64,000 nucleotides of DNA from assembly GCA_026210745.1 (NCBI GenBank), contig CP110630.1, forward strand, positions 6,510,001 through 6,574,000, in the 5' to 3' direction. This DNA is from Exobasidium rhododendri. Taxonomy: Eukaryota; Basidiomycota; Exobasidiomycetes; Exobasidiales; Exobasidiaceae. The translations under genes and the position numbers were made by a program. Position 1 is the first letter of the stretch; each line of letters begins with the position of its first letter. The notes below the pieces were generated by a model that saw nothing but the letters and a program-made list of their open reading frames with translations, made no database searches and was not told the DNA's origin. Shown here one piece after another: positions 132 through 31,041 of the stretch.

Positions 132-3100
132 ATGCCTCCACGCAATCCCTCCTATGGGTCGTCTCCGCCTCCAGGGAATCATCGGTCGTATCCGACATAC
201 GATGAGGGAGCGGCTCCAACTGGTCAGCCAAGCTATCCACTATATGATGACCACGATCAGTCTCCTCCAGTTCATCATGACGAATACGATGCACACTTTA
301 ATACCCGTTACGCAGAAGCACCATACTCAACTTCTGCTGACCCAGAAGCCGAGCAGTATGGGATGGTGCCACCTTCTTCATCTATGGGCGGCTATGCAAG
401 ACCTTCCGACTCCCGTCACAATTTCCAACCTCGACCTCGTAACGATTCGTACGGAATGCCATCACCCCTGAACAACCCGTTTGGCGGTGATGGATCAAGT
501 GCGAATCATGGCTACGACGACCGGATGAGTGAGATTGGACCAGGTTTGTATGCAGGCAGACAGAGCACAAATACGCTGCCTGGCTATGGTGGCCCAGACC
601 CTGGGGAAGAAGATCACGAAGGAATAGGAGATGTGCCGCTGCTACCTGCCAAGGGAGGTAATTACAATTACGCACCTGCCTCTTCCTTCGATGCTGATGG
701 GCATCATGTGGGGGGAATGTCCATCAACGATGAAGAGGGAAGATACCCGGGTGATCAGGGATTGAGGCAAAGGCAGCGAATTGCTTCAGAAGCGTCTTAT
801 ATGCCAGGCGGATTTGATCCTAGTCTGATGGATCAAGGAGGCAATGTCCGATTTGGAAAGATTCCTCAGAGAGTGCCTCGAAGGTACAAGACACTCAAGC
901 GAGTCGAACTCTTTCACGGGAATCTGGTACTCGATTGTCCCACAGCACCTGCTCTGCTAGAGAAGCTCAATGATCGAGAAAGTCGAGAAATGACACACGC
1001 TCGATACAGTGCGGTAACTTGCGATGCAGACGACTTTCTTGAGGAAAGATACACCCTTCGACAGGTACTTTTCGATCCTCCCCGACGCACGGAATTGATG
1101 ATTTGTCTGACGATGTACAACGAAGATGAACAGCTATTCTGTCGAACGCTCCATGGAGTCCTGACCAACGTCGCCTTTTTGTGCAGTCGAACAAAATCGA
1201 GGACGTGGGGAGCTGATGCCTGGAAGAGGGTGGTGGTGGTCATTGTAGCTGATGGAAGAATGAAGTGCAACCCGAGAGTTCTTTCTGTCCTGGCAGCCAT
1301 GGGAGTGTATCAAGAAGGTGTTGCGAAGAACGTCGTCAATGGAAAGCCGGTTCAGATGCACCTCTACGAGTACACGACACAACTCAGTGTTGATCCCAAC
1401 ATGAAATTCAAAGGAAAGGAGAAAGGTGTGATGCCGACGCAGATCATCTTTGCCATGAAAGAGAAGAATGCAAAGAAGATCAACAGCCATCGATGGTGCT
1501 TCAATGCGATCGGTAGAGTACTGCAGCCAAACGTTTGCATCCTTCTCGACGTAGGAACGATGCCGAGGGCAAAGAGTATCTATCACCTATGGAAAGCTTT
1601 CGACATCAACTCGAACGTCGCTGGTGCTTGTGGTGAAATCGTTGCTCTCAAGGGGAAGCTCTGGACTGGTCTGCTGAATCCTCTCGTAGCAGCACAGAAC
1701 TTTGAGTACAAGCTGTCGAACATTCTGGACAAGCCTCTCGAGTCGGTATTCGGGTACATTACCGTCTTGCCAGGAGCATTTTCTGCCTATCGTTATATAG
1801 CGCTACAGAATGATGCAAAGGGAAATGGGCCGCTGGCTTCCTACTTCAAGGGGGAGACATTGCATGGAGGAAACAGCAACGCCGACATCTTTACCAGCAA
1901 CATGTACCTCGCCGAAGATCGAATCCTGTGCTGGGAGCTGTGTTCAAAGCGAGACGCTGCGTGGATTCTGCATTACGTGAAGAGTGCGCAGGGTGTGACG
2001 GATGTGCCTGACACTGTTCCTGAGTTGATTTCTCAAAGACGTCGATGGCTCAATGGCTCCTTTTTCGCTGGTCTACACTCGATTGTCCACTTCGGGTACA
2101 TCTATCGATCATCTCACAGCTTCAGCCGTAAATTCGCGCTCCACATCGAGATGGTCTACCAGGTCATTCAATTGCTCTTCACTTGGTTCGGACTTGCCAA
2201 CTACTTTTTGGCATTTTCCATCCTGACGAGATCACTAGGGGACGAAATCAAGCAACTCAAGGTTCCCAATCTGATCTTGGAGTACATCTACGTGGCTCTG
2301 CTCATCTTCATCTTCTTGCTCTCCATGGGCAATCGTCCAGCAGGCGCCAAGTTCGGCTACACCTTTTCCATGGTCATCTTTGCCATCTTGACCCTGTACA
2401 TGACAATCTGTGCCATCTATCTGGCTGTGACGAGTATCATCAACACCGAGAATTCGGTAACGGGAGCGGCAAGCCTGTTGACCAACTACACATTCGTCGC
2501 CATTGTAGTTTCAGTGGCAGCCACGGTCGGTGTCTACCTGATTGCCAGTATCCTTTTCGTGAGTAGCAGCAAGTATACGATCTCGTGGAGTGTATTGCAT
2601 GGCTGACCCCACGCGCGATACACTCTCTTCCTCGACAAAGCTTGAGCCTTGGCATATGATCACCTCTATCTTGCAGTACTACCTGATGTCTCCTTCCTTT
2701 GTGTCCGTCTTTGGTGTCTACTCCATGTGCAACGTGCACGATGTCAGCTGGGGGACAAAGGGGTCCGACAAGATCGAGACCGACTTGGGTGTCGTCGGAG
2801 GAAAGGATGGTCAAGTAGAGATCCACTTACCCACCGAAGCAAAGGACATCGATGAAGCTTATCACGACGCCGTTCACGTCTTGGCGACGAAACCTCCAAA
2901 GGAAGAGAAGAAGGTGGACGCAGATCAGGCTCAATCGGATTATTATGCCACCATCCGAACAAACGTCGTCTTAGTCTGGGTCTTGTCGAACGGTGCACTT
3001 GCCGTCTCGATCTTGTCGATCAGCAACCCAAAAGCAAAGATCATCTACATGGCCGTGATCTTGTACTCTGTAGCGGCTCTCAGTGCTTTCAGGTTGGTGG

Positions 3101-26013: not shown

Positions 26014-26679
26014 CTCTTTGCAAAGTCAGTCAAGCTTGGGTGGGTGGGTGAGGGTACGAAAGGAGGATGATCGAATATCGTGTCTATCTCCATCTTGTAC
26101 AGGTACTCATCGGCAGCTTCGTAGACATATGCAAAGTTCAATGTCGAATGTATTTAATGTCCACTCGAGCATCCGTACGGTACGAATCCCTCAATAAACA
26201 CAAGCTGATCCTGTGCAACCTTCTCCATAAAGTGGGGCACTCCGCCTTTTCCTTCACGACGCGCGCTTCCAGGGCCGAAATGAGCCGGCAATTGCGGGTG
26301 CCCCTCAATTAGTATATTATAATCAGCACTGCTCTCGCACGGTAGATGCGACCCTCCAGCAGGCGGGATGCCGACACCTGCCGTGTAGTGGCAATCTATG
26401 AGGAGAGAGAGAGGAAGACTCGTGCAACGATCCCCATGCCAGGATGGAATTGCCAATACGCTACTACACAACTCTACAAAGCGAGGTAGTGCAAGTGATG
26501 GTCTTTCGACGTGGGATGTGGAAATTCTGTATGCGTCGTCACTCTACAATCCATCTCGTGTGCACTTTGAGGAAAATGGTTGTGAGTGATAGACATGCTA
26601 CATAGTATTGCCATGTTCAGCGTTGATGTCTGATAGTGCGACTGGTTCGTTCCCCTACGCACTTATCCGATGCAATTGA
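26014..26679. other. Intergenic region left of the mobile island
   Basis: Promoter side of the acyl-CoA synthetase gene, with an AT-rich TTAGTATATTATAAT stretch near 26310. Short ORFs here overlap each other and lack any family signature. No RNA gene seen. Confidence 0.55.
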
Positions 26680-26686
26680 CGCGTGA

Positions 26687-26933
26687 GTCAATCCGAGCCG
26701 AGCCCGCAAATTTGCAAAATCTTCCCTGCCAAAAGGGCCATGTTGAACGCGTCAGAGTGTTTGGGAGATGTTTGCCACTTCAAAATGCAAAGTCAATCCA
26801 ACAGGGCATATGTGCTTATTTCCCAAAATGCCTGCGTAGCAGGCCAAAAAATATGCTGCATATGCCTCCAGGATTGACTTTTAATGCAGAAACTGGATTG
26901 ACCCGTCTCATTTCACTACTTGACTGGATTGAC
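26687..26933. repeat. Cluster of five GGATTGAC octamers
   Basis: GTCAATCC at 26687-26694 and 26792-26799, and its reverse complement GGATTGAC at 26871-26878, 26895-26902 and 26926-26933. The last two share the 11-mer CTGGATTGACC. Five copies in 247 bp, two facing one way then three facing the other, just upstream of the recombinase gene. This arrangement suggests binding sites for the recombinase or a regulator. Confidence 0.75.
26708..26721 (+). repeat. Left copy of 14-bp direct repeat (island edge)
   Basis: AAATTTGCAAAATC, identical to 30766-30779 and in the same orientation 4,058 bp away. Possible recombination or attachment site. Confidence 0.55.
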
Positions 26934-27049
26934 CTGACTTTGTGCGCCCTGAGGAACTCCACCGTCTCACAAATCACAATAATAAGCAAGACCATAGCTG
27001 GTAGAAGGCAGGGAAATCAACGCAATCAGCTGAAGCGTCACACCAGAAC

Positions 27050-28936
27050 ATGTCCAATCATAGAGGAAGGATTACTCGTGCCGCTGAGCACTTCTTGGCA
27101 GAAGCTAATCTGCAGCTGGGAATGGTCATTGATATGGAAGATGATGTTGCACCGTCTAGCACAAAAGAGACCGTTGGCAACATTGAGTCAGCAGAGATCA
27201 ATAATACAACAGAAGCAATGCCCAACGCAGAGATTGCAGATGAATGGGATGATGCATTTGGTGATCAGTACGTTCAAGATCATTTGTTGTCGAGTGGAAC
27301 AATTAAATCATACAAGCAGAATATTGTACGCTTCAGGAAATGGATTGCAACATTAGGCAGCTCTTGTACATTTAAAGACGGCCTAGACATGCTTGGTGAG
27401 CACAGTGAAAGGCTCTGCCGCGCCTGGTTACAAGAGCGTGTGAGACTGGCCGATGCCAACTCAAGCACACTGCAAAGTATGCACGCAGCGCTCAAATGGC
27501 ACTTCCTTACTGTACACAACTGTGATAGTGCTCCGCAAACTGGCTGGCACAAGACCACAGAAGGAGAATGGACGGGCAATCCTGTCTTCAGTAAGAGGTA
27601 TCTGAACCTATTCAGAAGCAAGATGCGTGAAGTGAAGCGCTCTCTGGTTGCAAGCAAAAGCTCTCTACCAATGCTTTATCAGTATCTGTCCGTCATCCTA
27701 AAGGACATCAAGACAAAGCTACTTGCCTTTGACGCAACACCACATCTCATCACAAGTGAGCGTACACAATTAGAGTTCATGCATTTCTACATGATCCTGG
27801 CTTACAGGCTTTGGGCACGTTGTGATGAGATCTGCTCAATGCTATGGCGTCACATACATTCAACAATCAAATTCTCTTCTCCGGGAAACAATCCCTATCT
27901 GGAAGTGACAATTGCATTCCGCAAAACAAATCAGTATGAACTGAACAAAGCCAACGTATACCAGCTCTACTTCCTGCCTGGACGGCCATTGGTAGATGCT
28001 GTCTCATCATATCAACGGTGGCATGCTTACTGGAAACTTGTTTGCGGACATGAGCCAAGGCCAACCGATCACATCTTTCCTGCACCAGACAAGAAGGTGG
28101 GCCGTCTGCAGACTGGCACAAGGATGGAAGCAGCACAGATCAATTTAATGTTGGGTCAGATAGAGAATATCAACAGTATGCTGAAGAATCAGCAGGGCAA
28201 ATTTACGTCTCACTGTTTCCGACGCGGCGGAGCACAAGACGCGGTATTACACGCACACCTGTATGGAGAACAGAGGCAGTCCATTACGCGTGCCCTGTGG
28301 TGGGGTGGCTGGTCTAAAGGGGAGCGTACCAACATGTTGGCTCACTACCTCTTAGAAGAGGTTGCTACGCAAGAAGAGTATCATGGAGATATGGAGGATC
28401 CAGGTGGAGACAACGTCCGAGGTAGCTACTTTGCAGGTGCACAAATGTCAGGACAGGACCGCATGATAGAGTCTTTCCAGTACGCCCTTGGAAAGCTCGA
28501 GAAACAACTCAGTATAATGCAGCAGACCAACGTCAGCCTTGTAGAAGCACTGTTGCAGGGTTCACAGAGAGTGCAGGCACAGGCTGGCACCGCAAACACA
28601 GCAGCAACACCCAGTGTAGTCAACAGCGTCAACAGTCAACTGGAACACCTTGCCGGCACCTCTGCAGCAGTTGCTATTGGTGCCAACGCTGCTTCTGCTC
28701 TGGCAAGTGGGACGCCGCACATAGCTCCTGGCAGGCCGCTGCCACTGAGAATACCATCTGTAAAGACAGTAGAGGAGGTTGTTAAGCAATGGGAATTGGG
28801 CAATGCAAGTCAGAACCTTCTGGCTTTGTGCCGTTGGACCCCGCTATGCGCAAGAAGGACAAAGGGGGAAATGCTCAAGTGTACAGTCTACGCAAGAAGA
28901 TCTATGATGGGTATCTCAAGCGTAATAAGGATCTAA
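27050..28936 (+). CDS. Tyrosine recombinase, Crypton-type
   Basis: Intronless 628-aa frame encoding a site-specific recombinase. An N-terminal SAM-like DNA-binding region (residues 80-155, SGTIKSYKQNIVRFRKWI) is followed by the catalytic domain. The active-site set is visible: Arg257 in WARCDEI, Lys292 in AFRKTNQ, His388 and Arg391 in SHCFRRGG, a Trp in GGWS (about 421), and the nucleophile candidate Tyr433 in LAHYLLEE. A helical segment (471-503) and a low-complexity Ala/Ser linker lead to IPSVKTVEEVVKQWELG, the start of a GCR1_C-like domain. After about 28,810 this frame loses similarity while another frame picks it up (see next entry). The recombinase core looks intact and could be active. 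Confidence 0.85.
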   Translation: MSNHRGRITRAAEHFLAEANLQLGMVIDMEDDVAPSSTKETVGNIESAEINNTTEAMPNAEIADEWDDAFGDQYVQDHLLSSGTIKSYKQNIVRFRKWIATLGSSCTFKDGLDMLGEHSERLCRAWLQERVRLADANSSTLQSMHAALKWHFLTVHNCDSAPQTGWHKTTEGEWTGNPVFSKRYLNLFRSKMREVKRSLVASKSSLPMLYQYLSVILKDIKTKLLAFDATPHLITSERTQLEFMHFYMILAYRLWARCDEICSMLWRHIHSTIKFSSPGNNPYLEVTIAFRKTNQYELNKANVYQLYFLPGRPLVDAVSSYQRWHAYWKLVCGHEPRPTDHIFPAPDKKVGRLQTGTRMEAAQINLMLGQIENINSMLKNQQGKFTSHCFRRGGAQDAVLHAHLYGEQRQSITRALWWGGWSKGERTNMLAHYLLEEVATQEEYHGDMEDPGGDNVRGSYFAGAQMSGQDRMIESFQYALGKLEKQLSIMQQTNVSLVEALLQGSQRVQAQAGTANTAATPSVVNSVNSQLEHLAGTSAAVAIGANAASALASGTPHIAPGRPLPLRIPSVKTVEEVVKQWELGNASQNLLALCRWTPLCARRTKGEMLKCTVYARRSMMGISSVIRI

Positions 28937-29040
28937 AGGCATTCTATGAGGCATATGGTGGTCCTGGCTTGACATTGCGTAGATACATTGATGCAATAAA
29001 GGCTGAAGAAAAAGATATACGAGTAGTGCAAAAAGGCTGA
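28825..29040 (+). pseudogene. Frame-displaced C-terminal (GCR1_C-like) part of the recombinase
   Basis: Continuation of the recombinase in a different frame. It reads EPSGFVPLDPAMRKKDKGG, then YSLRKKIYDGYL and a helical end, ending at 29040. The YSxRKKIYD pattern fits the end of a GCR1_C-type DNA-binding domain that starts in the upstream frame at TVEEVVKQWE. One base missing (or two extra) near 28,800-28,830 would explain the change. No intron of usual size fits, and no classical slippery heptamer is visible. This is either a recent inactivating mutation, a sequencing error, or less likely a frameshift event. Confidence 0.6.
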
Positions 29041-29084
29041 ATTATCTGTATCTTCCAACGTACAACTGAGCAGTGACATGACAT

Positions 29085-29690
29085 GTAATTGACAAACTGT
29101 TTAACCCACATAATATGCTCCTTATGAACTTCCCAAAACATCATCAAGCGTAGTCCTACCTTGAGATGCAAGCATTTGGCTCCCATTCCCTATTTTACAT
29201 GGCTCTAACTAAGCAATAATATTTGCTCACGTATGCCCTAATTTTCTTGAAGCAACACTTCTTTGACAGATTATGAGATGAATTTGTATCATGCAATTGA
29301 CACAATATTAAGACCATAGAATATGCTCCTTCTGATCTCTTGATAGTGTCCTTAACCATGTCTCTAGCATGTCTGAGCAAGTCACCGTCAGGCTCTAGAT
29401 TGTCCTTGCGTGTAAGGATTTTGAAAAAAAAAAAAACGCAAATGTTCAACAGACTGTGTACAAGACACCTACCTTTTTCTCTTGAAACGCTTCAAACCAC
29501 AAAATATGCTACCTCTGAACTTTCTAAAATGATATCAAACATGTCTCTAGCATGGCTCAGTGGCTCACAATAAGTGTTTACAATTAGGATGCCTGTAAGA
29601 GATTTTTTTCAAAAAAGTGTGTGGCAGAAAAATATTCATTTCATCCATTCGGATGCCTGTAAGGATTTTTTTGAAATTTTTTTCTCACAC
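29085..29690. repeat. Degenerate repeat array between the two island genes
   Basis: Three related units start at about 29,090, 29,295 and 29,480, each with (A)ATATGCTCCTTNTGA-like core: ATATGCT at 29113-29119, 29321-29327 and 29504-29510. Two of them share CATGTCTCTAGCATG downstream. A second motif family, TGTAAGGATTTT followed by A- or T-runs, occurs at about 29411, 29590 and 29653. A related ATATGCT with A-rich lead occurs at 26851-26857, upstream of the recombinase. The stretch is AT-rich and stop-dense in all frames. It might be terminators for the two convergent genes, recombinase-binding sites or a decayed tandem array. Confidence 0.65.
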
Positions 29691-29736
29691 CGTTGAACAT
29701 CCTTTGGGGTGGTCTAAATTGTGTCTATTGGTCTAA

Positions 29737-30645
29737 TTATGGTACATGAGCTTTCTTGCTTCTTACACGGGGTATCCTTGTTGAGGATCCAGCACCTTCT
29801 ACATCTCGGACTTCCATGGAAGGGAGCTGTTTTTTCAGCACTATCAGCCGTCTCATTGACAGACTTACTGCATATCTCCTTGCCATGTCTTCTTCTGAAG
29901 TTCCATCCGTTGGTCTGACCTTGTGTTCCATATTAGCTCTGAAGAAGAGGACATCTCCCGGGTGGAGACATACGGCCGACCCTTCCACCTCTATGACCAC
30001 CTTACACCCAAAATTGATGAGGATAGTTGGATCTGAATCCCTGCTGTCTCTATGACTCTCTGTCGAGAAGCCTTGTATGACGGCAGCCAGTGCATACCAT
30101 GGATGTAGAAGACTACAATCACCAGCGGGGAAGAGAGATTCCATCCATTCAAAACCTTCTTCCCGAGTGTCCAGTTCCTCTCTGAAGTCTTCTGCAAGTA
30201 GGGAGTCCAAGATGATGACAAATGACATAAAGAATGAATGAATCCAGTCAAGCATCTTGTCTGAAGCAGGCTTGCATCTGATGTGTTCCCGTGTCCAACC
30301 TATCTGCCGACCAAAATTGTACCATATCCCCAAATGAACCACCAGTGCTCCGTGACGATCAGGATCATCTAAATTCTCCAGCGCTGACTTGTAAAGAGAC
30401 TCCTTCAGCTCCCATCCCTCCCTGTACATCTCGTTGAGACGGGCAGCTGACCTTGTTGAGGTAGGAGAGAAGCGCTGCATAATGGTCTTATGGCCAGCAC
30501 TGATGGTAATGTTAGTCCTGTCTTCCAGATCAATGTAGGCGTGTGGATGCTCATGATGATGGGCAATTTTGCGGCTCTGCACCTCTACCCTTTCCCTCCT
30601 CTTCCTAGCAGCATCTGTGTCAAGTCTCTTAGGTCTGAAAGGCAT
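29737..30645 (-). CDS. TET/JBP-like 2-oxoglutarate/Fe(II) dioxygenase
   Basis: Intronless frame of 302 aa from the first ATG at 30645. The N-terminus is strongly basic (MPFRPKRLDTDAARKRRERV), like a nuclear localisation or nucleic-acid-binding tail. The C-terminal half has a double-stranded beta-helix dioxygenase pattern: HRD (His198, Asp200) in STESHRDSRDSD, a LHPGDVLFFRA strand, distal His241 in MEHKVRP, and the 2-oxoglutarate Arg257 in ARRYAVSLSM. The order HxD - PGDVxFxR - H-x-V-x-P - RY is that of the TET/JBP family, which oxidises methylated bases. Basidiomycete TET/JBP genes are known to expand with transposons. It is convergent with the recombinase. Substrate is inferred only. Confidence 0.7.
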   Translation of the reverse strand: MPFRPKRLDTDAARKRRERVEVQSRKIAHHHEHPHAYIDLEDRTNITISAGHKTIMQRFSPTSTRSAARLNEMYREGWELKESLYKSALENLDDPDRHGALVVHLGIWYNFGRQIGWTREHIRCKPASDKMLDWIHSFFMSFVIILDSLLAEDFREELDTREEGFEWMESLFPAGDCSLLHPWYALAAVIQGFSTESHRDSRDSDPTILINFGCKVVIEVEGSAVCLHPGDVLFFRANMEHKVRPTDGTSEEDMARRYAVSLSMRRLIVLKKQLPSMEVRDVEGAGSSTRIPRVRSKKAHVP

Positions 30646-30750
30646 AGTATTATGGTATACCAATGCCAGGGTGGTGGTGGGGGGGGTGAGATGAGATCTT
30701 CTGTAGGGGGGAAAAGCCCAATCTAAAAAAGGGGTTCAACGCGCGCACAA

Positions 30751-30880
30751 CCAGTCAAAAAATAAAAATTTGCAAAATCACGAAGATCTTCGTGATTTTG
30801 GAAGTCACGAGAACACGAGAATCTTCGTGATTTCAAAGTCTAAATCCAGGGCCAAGATCGAGGCGCGCGCCAGTCAAAAC
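30751..30880. repeat. Right-edge repeat and palindrome block
   Basis: The 10-mer CCAGTCAAAA occurs at 30751-30760 and 30870-30879, both preceded by GCGCGC tracts. Between them lie a perfect 26-bp palindrome (30774-30799, centre AAGATCTT) and a second copy of ATCTTCGTGATTT (30786-30798 and 30821-30833). The right copy of the 14-bp direct repeat (30766-30779) overlaps the palindrome. This dense symmetry marks the likely right terminus of the island or a protein-binding hub in the dioxygenase promoter. Confidence 0.7.
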
Positions 30881-31041
30881 GAAAAGTCAAACGATGGGAA
30901 ATATATTCTACTTATTTAAAAAGCACTCCTTCTGACGTTAATGTCAGGAGTTCCTTTGAGATATATATATCGTCGTGCCACTTCCGATCCGACAAGCATC
31001 AAGCAACCACATTCTTATACAATCCTAGTAATCTTACTTCC

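Follow-up and report, generated by a model that had tools for sequence, protein, structure and literature searches.

A Crypton carrying a TET/JBP-like dioxygenase gene in Exobasidium rhododendri

A 64,000-nucleotide stretch of contig C1 of Exobasidium rhododendri CBS101457 (C1:6510001-6574000, hereafter the window), a fungus that we take to belong to Ustilaginomycotina, harbors a Crypton that encodes a tyrosine recombinase and, convergent with it, a TET/JBP-like 2-oxoglutarate (2OG)-Fe(II) dioxygenase. The contig measures 7,127,044 bases in a genome of 17.65 Mb and four contigs. Judged from its borders and copies, the interval 26661-30913 of the window is a complete mobile element whose two genes are transferred together. 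We read it as a recently active Crypton that moves at the short direct repeat ACTT and carries a dioxygenase most likely acting against silencing through oxidation of 5-methylcytosine (5mC), a reading to which we give a probability of roughly three in four.

Borders, copies and gene content of the element

A DNA search of the genome with the reported interval as query returned six full-length copies on two contigs and one mosaic copy (L015). The six full-length copies, referred to as burst copies, start with ACTTATCCGATG and stop with ATATATTCTACTT between unrelated flanks. Five of them show no difference across 4254 bp, the only departure of the window copy being one deleted base. The mosaic copy possesses the same two termini. 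ACTT bounds the element at all seven insertion sites, in flanks that are otherwise unrelated, with a T two bases further on (6/7) and a T 14 bases upstream (6/7) as the only other conspicuous positions. Terminal inverted repeats are absent, none of the 23 listed inverted-repeat pairs connecting both termini, consistent with the CryptonF elements described in excerpts of Kojima and Jurka (2011, PMC3212892), which have terminal direct repeats of 4-6 bp and no terminal inverted repeats.

Both genes are present in all seven copies. The recombinase used as a genome query finds the same seven loci and no others, while the dioxygenase finds the six burst copies, L015 and one distant gene; a recombinase relative from Ceraceosorus retrieves no additional Crypton in the genome beyond a single match at E 0.85. 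The co-occurrence in seven copies, together with the common borders, rules out that the two genes are chance neighbors. The dioxygenase as a host gene at a fixed locus was likewise rejected, the genome search having found no plain host copy and the one other family member found adjoining a MULE-like transposase. The five identical copies indicate a Crypton that is recently active. The unit, its ends, the co-transfer of its genes and the active-site residues described below are all read from the DNA and its translations.

These results bear on an original prediction, made from the window alone, of a mobile island at 26680-30880 with edge repeats, in which a tyrosine recombinase with its catalytic residues and a convergent, intronless dioxygenase with an HxD motif and a distal His may form one unit. 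The element does lie there, with its true borders slightly outside that interval, and the edge repeats are the 4-bp ACTT at both ends; the two genes were recovered with these residues, each in one open frame, and adjacency holds at 7/7 recombinase loci of this genome. Neither outcome named in advance as refuting the prediction, a dioxygenase apart from the recombinase at a conserved host locus or a profile placement outside nucleic-acid dioxygenases, was seen in this genome.

The recombinase and the dioxygenase

The element recombinase is a Cre-fold tyrosine recombinase. In an alignment of 14 proteins, comprising the element recombinase and 13 relatives, Lys292, His388, Arg391, Trp417 and Tyr433 are invariant, and Arg257 is conserved in 13, being replaced by Thr in P0018; the catalytic roles are those we presume from position. 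The one-base deletion of the window copy shortens its recombinase to 628 amino acids (aa) from 663. GCR1_C matches at E<=0.1 in 4 of the 14 aligned proteins (best E 0.024), and a search of PDB sequences with the recombinase profile returned nothing relevant (best E 0.3). The CryptonF elements of the excerpts (PMC3212892) likewise encode a tyrosine recombinase and are marked by a C-terminal GCR1_C domain, to which the present recombinase shows a weak match. For oomycete Cryptons the excerpts mention a C48 peptidase, and they also note a fusion with Mariner; a dioxygenase is not mentioned. By analogy with Crypton models, the recombinase would move the element by recombination at the 4-bp ACTT core, excising or copying it through a circle and rejoining it at ACTT, with the subterminal palindromes near the right end as candidate binding sites.

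The dioxygenase is encoded by a single open frame. The facial triad H198xD200 and H241, as well as R257, the putative 2OG-binding Arg by its position, are all present in the burst copies. Across seven aligned dioxygenase rows, H198, D203, H241 and R257 are invariant, and D200 is conserved except in the L015 copy and database entry P0003, which are the same gene and read HxN. A profile search of PDB sequences places NgTet first, and the best structural alignment of the predicted model is to the fungal CcTet, followed by AlkB. As the Pfam Tet_JBP cut-off is surpassed at none of seven places in this genome, we use the label TET/JBP-like; by profile and predicted fold, the Crypton dioxygenase is TET/JBP-like with TET enzymes as its nearest solved relatives, in agreement with the class originally predicted.

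The residue at position H+5 is Asp, which binds 5mC in NgTet1 and CMD1. According to excerpts of PMC11040006, this position is Asp in the 5mC enzymes NgTet1 and CMD1 and Gly in Coprinopsis cinerea CcTet, the best fold match, which also acts on N6-methyladenine (6mA). The Asp argues against an enzyme that makes a hypermodified base (as JBP does with base J and CMD1 with glyceryl-methylcytosine), or that acts like AlkB on 6mA or damaged bases, rather than removing 5mC. No further recognizable modifying enzyme was seen by eye among the element's open reading frames (ORFs) of at least 80 aa, and we regard such an activity as improbable.

TET-like genes in other elements and the exchange of cassettes

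Three unrelated element types in this genome, Crypton, Harbinger-like and MULE-like, each carry a TET-like gene. Within the Cryptons, the mosaic copy shares 98% identity with the burst copies across the first 2.76 kb and 94-98% just ahead of the dioxygenase, falls to 45-72% per 100-bp block (where alignable) in the dioxygenase cassette, and returns to about 95-100% at the promoter side of the dioxygenase and the right end. This pattern points to a probable cassette exchange of the Crypton dioxygenase, its promoter side and the element ends staying in place. The right border of the mosaic Crypton lies within a tandem duplication of 100 bp (approximately L015:7305-7535).

Three near-identical PIF/Harbinger-like elements (L016-L018; 99.96-99.98% identity) are flanked by ACT and encode a transposase (DDE_Tnp_4, 75.6 bits; the match is split in L018) and a Myb/SANT-like protein (18 bits, under the cut-off of 27). 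Their TET-like gene differs from that of the Crypton. It is one open frame in L017 (421 aa) and L018; because of this single frame, the two overlapping ORFs of L016 represent a broken gene and not a spliced one. The transposase has seven further loci, five at 87-98% and two at 56% identity, with no dioxygenase among the matches listed there. The one further locus whose sequence was compared, L054, is 99.5% and 99.2% identical to the TET-carrying element on the two sides of a 1585-bp gap. The corresponding insert contains the dioxygenase and, after it, a 239-bp segment with 87% identity to Crypton positions 2773-3010, and finishes with GAAATATATTCT followed by A, precisely the Crypton ending ahead of ACTT; this right border is defined independently by the TET-less copy. 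Kojima (2025, PMC12730594) reported that the transferred TET genes under comparison bore no signature at their ends, whereas the gene in the present insert is bordered by a Crypton-like right end; the TET-carrying Harbinger elements of that study show TA as target duplication and lack a Myb/SANT protein, in contrast to the ACT flanks and weakly supported Myb/SANT-like protein of the present ones.

Crypton-like sequence on one side of the Harbinger TET-like gene raises the possibility that Cryptons helped TET genes to change superfamily. We tentatively propose, somewhat short of even odds, that Cryptons are vectors by which genes for TET-type demethylases pass from one transposon superfamily to another, unrelated one. 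On this view, a Crypton-derived cassette that bears the right terminus of a Crypton brought a TET gene into the Harbinger-like element, or was precisely lost from it, and the dioxygenase cassette was exchanged within Cryptons. The competing explanation is that gene conversion or template switching gave the Harbinger-like element and the Crypton their common 239-bp segment and right-end 12-mer, and that Cryptons never carried the Harbinger dioxygenase. It gains from the left border of the insert, where no Crypton left end is found, and from the distance between the two dioxygenases, neither of which retrieves the other in searches. The 12-mer alone is also short, and in the alignment of the two 70-bp ends the score was attained in 1 of 5000 shuffles (in 12 when a second scoring was used). 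The 12-mer nevertheless falls exactly on the border set by the copy without TET, has an A after it like the Crypton, and has the same strand as the common segment. Across 185,501 scanned bases (14 sequences), its 12 occurrences, one site being counted twice (window and L009), are all Crypton right ends, the L015 duplicate or Harbinger insert borders. Conversion or template switching is in our judgment a serious but doubtful account.

A simple recent gain of the insert is weakened by its left junction, which also occurs in the diverged TET-carrying L019 (29/369 differences), and by the near-identity of L054 to L017 (1/371), so that precise loss in L054 or later homogenization is at least as likely. 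L019:4688-6836 is a shortened Harbinger derivative, strongly CpG-depleted (observed/expected ratio, o/e, 0.30), with one internal stop codon in its diverged dioxygenase and no transposase match.

The MULE-like element (L041) has a SWIM-domain transposase (20.6 bits, above the cut-off), which we read as MULE-like, convergent with a dioxygenase 30% identical to that of the Crypton. Its terminal 18-bp inverted repeats match at 17/18 positions, with a local alignment score of 31 where 300 shuffles gave no more than 23, at a place chosen by a prior scan. A 13-bp direct repeat flanks the element a few bases outside these repeats, and a relative of its transposase on C2 has no adjoining dioxygenase match listed. 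Four subtelomeric places (C2:7433, C1:3760, C3:7425 and C1:7119159), none further than about 8 kb from the end of a contig, share 36-37% identity with the Harbinger dioxygenase, and one of them (L052, C2:6900-8300) contains the motif HxDxxD. Pfam finds solely 2OG-FeII_Oxy_3 in the Harbinger dioxygenase (15.6 bits against a cut-off of 27) and nothing at E<=0.01 in the subtelomeric one, and searches of PDB sequences gave nothing useful for either. The label TET-like, based for both on HxDxxD and mutual similarity, is therefore weaker than that of the Crypton enzyme.

Between the two Crypton genes lie three degenerate repeat units, detailed with the other features in Table 1. Read antisense (29082-29669), two of the three share a peptide, roughly LxHARDM...SExAY, that is also retained in the Harbinger insert. 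An origin as an exon of another gene was rejected, a 45-aa antisense reading of one unit matching only the seven Crypton copies in a genome search.

Table 1. Features of the Crypton and related loci (window positions unless a contig or locus is named)
Feature	Position	Strand	Basis
Complete Crypton element, 4253 bp in window copy	26661..30913	+	six-copy common sequence stops sharply there, flanks unrelated
Left terminal direct repeat ACTT, putative recombination core	26661..26664		7/7 copies
Tyrosine recombinase gene, 3'-end frameshift in window copy (628 aa; 663 aa in five other burst copies)	27050..28936	+	
Catalytic residues Arg257, Lys292, His388, Arg391, Tyr433	27818..28348	+	alignment with 13 relatives
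Three degenerate parallel repeat units between genes	29082..29521		repeats D1/D2; alignment
Cassette exchanged relative to L015, approximate	29420..30660	-	100-bp identity profile
Segment 87% identical to part of Harbinger 1585-bp insert, same strand relative to right end	29432..29669	+	
TET/JBP-like 2OG-Fe(II) dioxygenase, 302 aa, stop codon 29737-29739	29740..30645	-	
His198-x-Asp200, Asp203 (NgTet1 Asp234 position), distal His241	29923..30054	-	alignment; excerpts of PMC11040006
Subterminal palindromic repeats near right end	30770..30833		I3 and I7; block 98/100 identical in L015
Right-end motif GAAATATATTCT, common to right border of Harbinger insert	30898..30909	+	
Right terminal direct repeat ACTT	30910..30913		7/7 copies
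MULE-like element with TET-like dioxygenase	L041:3957-7566		
Left end of Crypton copy L013	C1:5102275		
Stop codon of DNMT5-like gene	C1:5102492-5102494		

Host methylation and the proposed role of the dioxygenase

The genome contains two PF00145 loci over the cut-off and a third below it. One of these loci is DNMT5-like and known from a methyltransferase part (in L053) and an 834-aa C-terminal part; the latter shares the frame of the methyltransferase match and hits PDB 7r76 at E 8e-118. That entry, deposited as 'DNA repair protein Rad8', is presumably Cryptococcus Dnmt5. One Crypton copy (L013, C1:5095000-5104999) lies 216 bp 3' of the stop codon of this gene on the same strand; a rough post hoc estimate of the chance that one of seven insertions lies in or beside one of two DNA methyltransferase (DNMT) genes is about 0.6%. 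The element is CpG-poor (o/e 0.54 vs 0.84), and the three lowest-CpG of 63 overlapping two-kb intervals lie inside it or reach 87 bp beyond. Between burst copies and L015, CpG-type sites, which make up 188 of 2758 positions, account for 22/45 transitions and 1/7 transversions; between the Harbinger-like L016 and L019, where they make up 98 of 1633 positions, the corresponding counts are 32/68 and 4/22. The CpG decay suggests past CpG methylation of the elements and, taken with the DNMT genes, suggests that the host methylates its DNA.

On such a host, the dioxygenase would oxidize 5mC placed on or near the element, which would keep both genes transcribed and spare the element CpG decay; the substrate and the anti-silencing role are what we infer from the residues and the company of the gene. 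Licensing of recombination, a further role that had been suggested for the pair, finds no support in the present analysis. VANDALs are plant MuDR elements, and VANC counters silencing as a sequence-specific protein and is not an oxygenase. The proposed role resembles that of VANDAL/VANC as described in excerpts of PMC5735166 and PMC10398659, where a transposon brings along the gene for a factor that opposes silencing by methylation.

Several observations weigh against our reading. The Crypton dioxygenase scores 19.8 bits with Tet_JBP, under the cut-off of 34.9, and 18.9 bits with the cupin model, likewise under its own cut-off; at E<=0.1 the cupin model matches 6/7 family members and Tet_JBP 4/7. 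The structure model is of modest confidence (predicted local distance difference test, pLDDT, 62.9; predicted template modeling score, pTM, 0.62), and a plain Foldseek search without re-alignment returned mostly cupins with weak E-values, none at E<=0.001. A database search found only three relatives of the dioxygenase outside this genome. GCR1_C in the recombinase C-terminus reaches 15.4 bits against a cut-off of 23. The CpG depletion points to probable methylation of the elements in the past, by which any protection is incomplete, and in the L015 dioxygenase Asn replaces the metal-binding Asp.

This last substitution, in the sole mosaic relative, is also what favors a passive cargo, caught between Crypton ends and hitch-hiking without benefit to the element. 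We consider passive carriage unlikely, since the frame is retained between very diverged versions, the cassette swap preserved both flanks and the open frame, and a TET-like gene is present in each of three element types of this genome that are unrelated to one another. Between a burst copy and L015, nonsynonymous (dN) and synonymous (dS) divergence by NG86 is 0.40 and 1.81 for the dioxygenase, whose dS is close to saturation. For the recombinase the two values are 0.005 and 0.059. At these low dN/dS ratios both genes look constrained.

A recently active Crypton with a proposed anti-silencing dioxygenase extends a known association. TET/JBP genes are reported in eleven fungal DNA-transposon lineages, of PU, AG and PE types (Kojima 2025, PMC12730594), where, as here, a TET/JBP-like gene lies within a complete DNA transposon, related TET genes occur in several superfamilies of one genome, and an anti-silencing role is proposed. 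The mobilizing enzyme there is a DDE/D transposase or the HUH enzyme of Helitrons, and the hosts are Pucciniomycetes, Agaricomycetes and Pezizomycetes, whereas the present element uses a tyrosine recombinase in Ustilaginomycotina; the main text of that study does not mention Crypton, tyrosine recombinase, Exobasidi or Ustilagin. The KDZ background invoked in the original prediction is outdated in view of the eleven lineages, none of which is based on a tyrosine recombinase. No KDZ transposase lies beside the Crypton dioxygenase. CcTet is connected by Kojima to Kyakuja transposons (PMC12730594). In the open-access literature searched we found no report of Crypton carriers of TET genes, and excerpts of PMC5718144 and PMC11075540 mention Crypton and JBP without connecting them. 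The eleven lineages include neither Crypton nor MULE, so the present element adds a new carrier type to the known TET-carrying transposons.

If our reading is correct, a recombinase-based transposon would join the selfish elements that have their own methylation eraser, in a subphylum new to the list. The five identical copies make it a recently active element open to study, and the copy 216 bp from the DNMT5-like gene is a natural test case for the interplay of eraser and writer. The Crypton-like border beside a TET gene makes the question of transfer between superfamilies testable; should Cryptons prove to be vectors, they would supply a mechanism for a transfer that Kojima (2025, PMC12730594) could call only passive.

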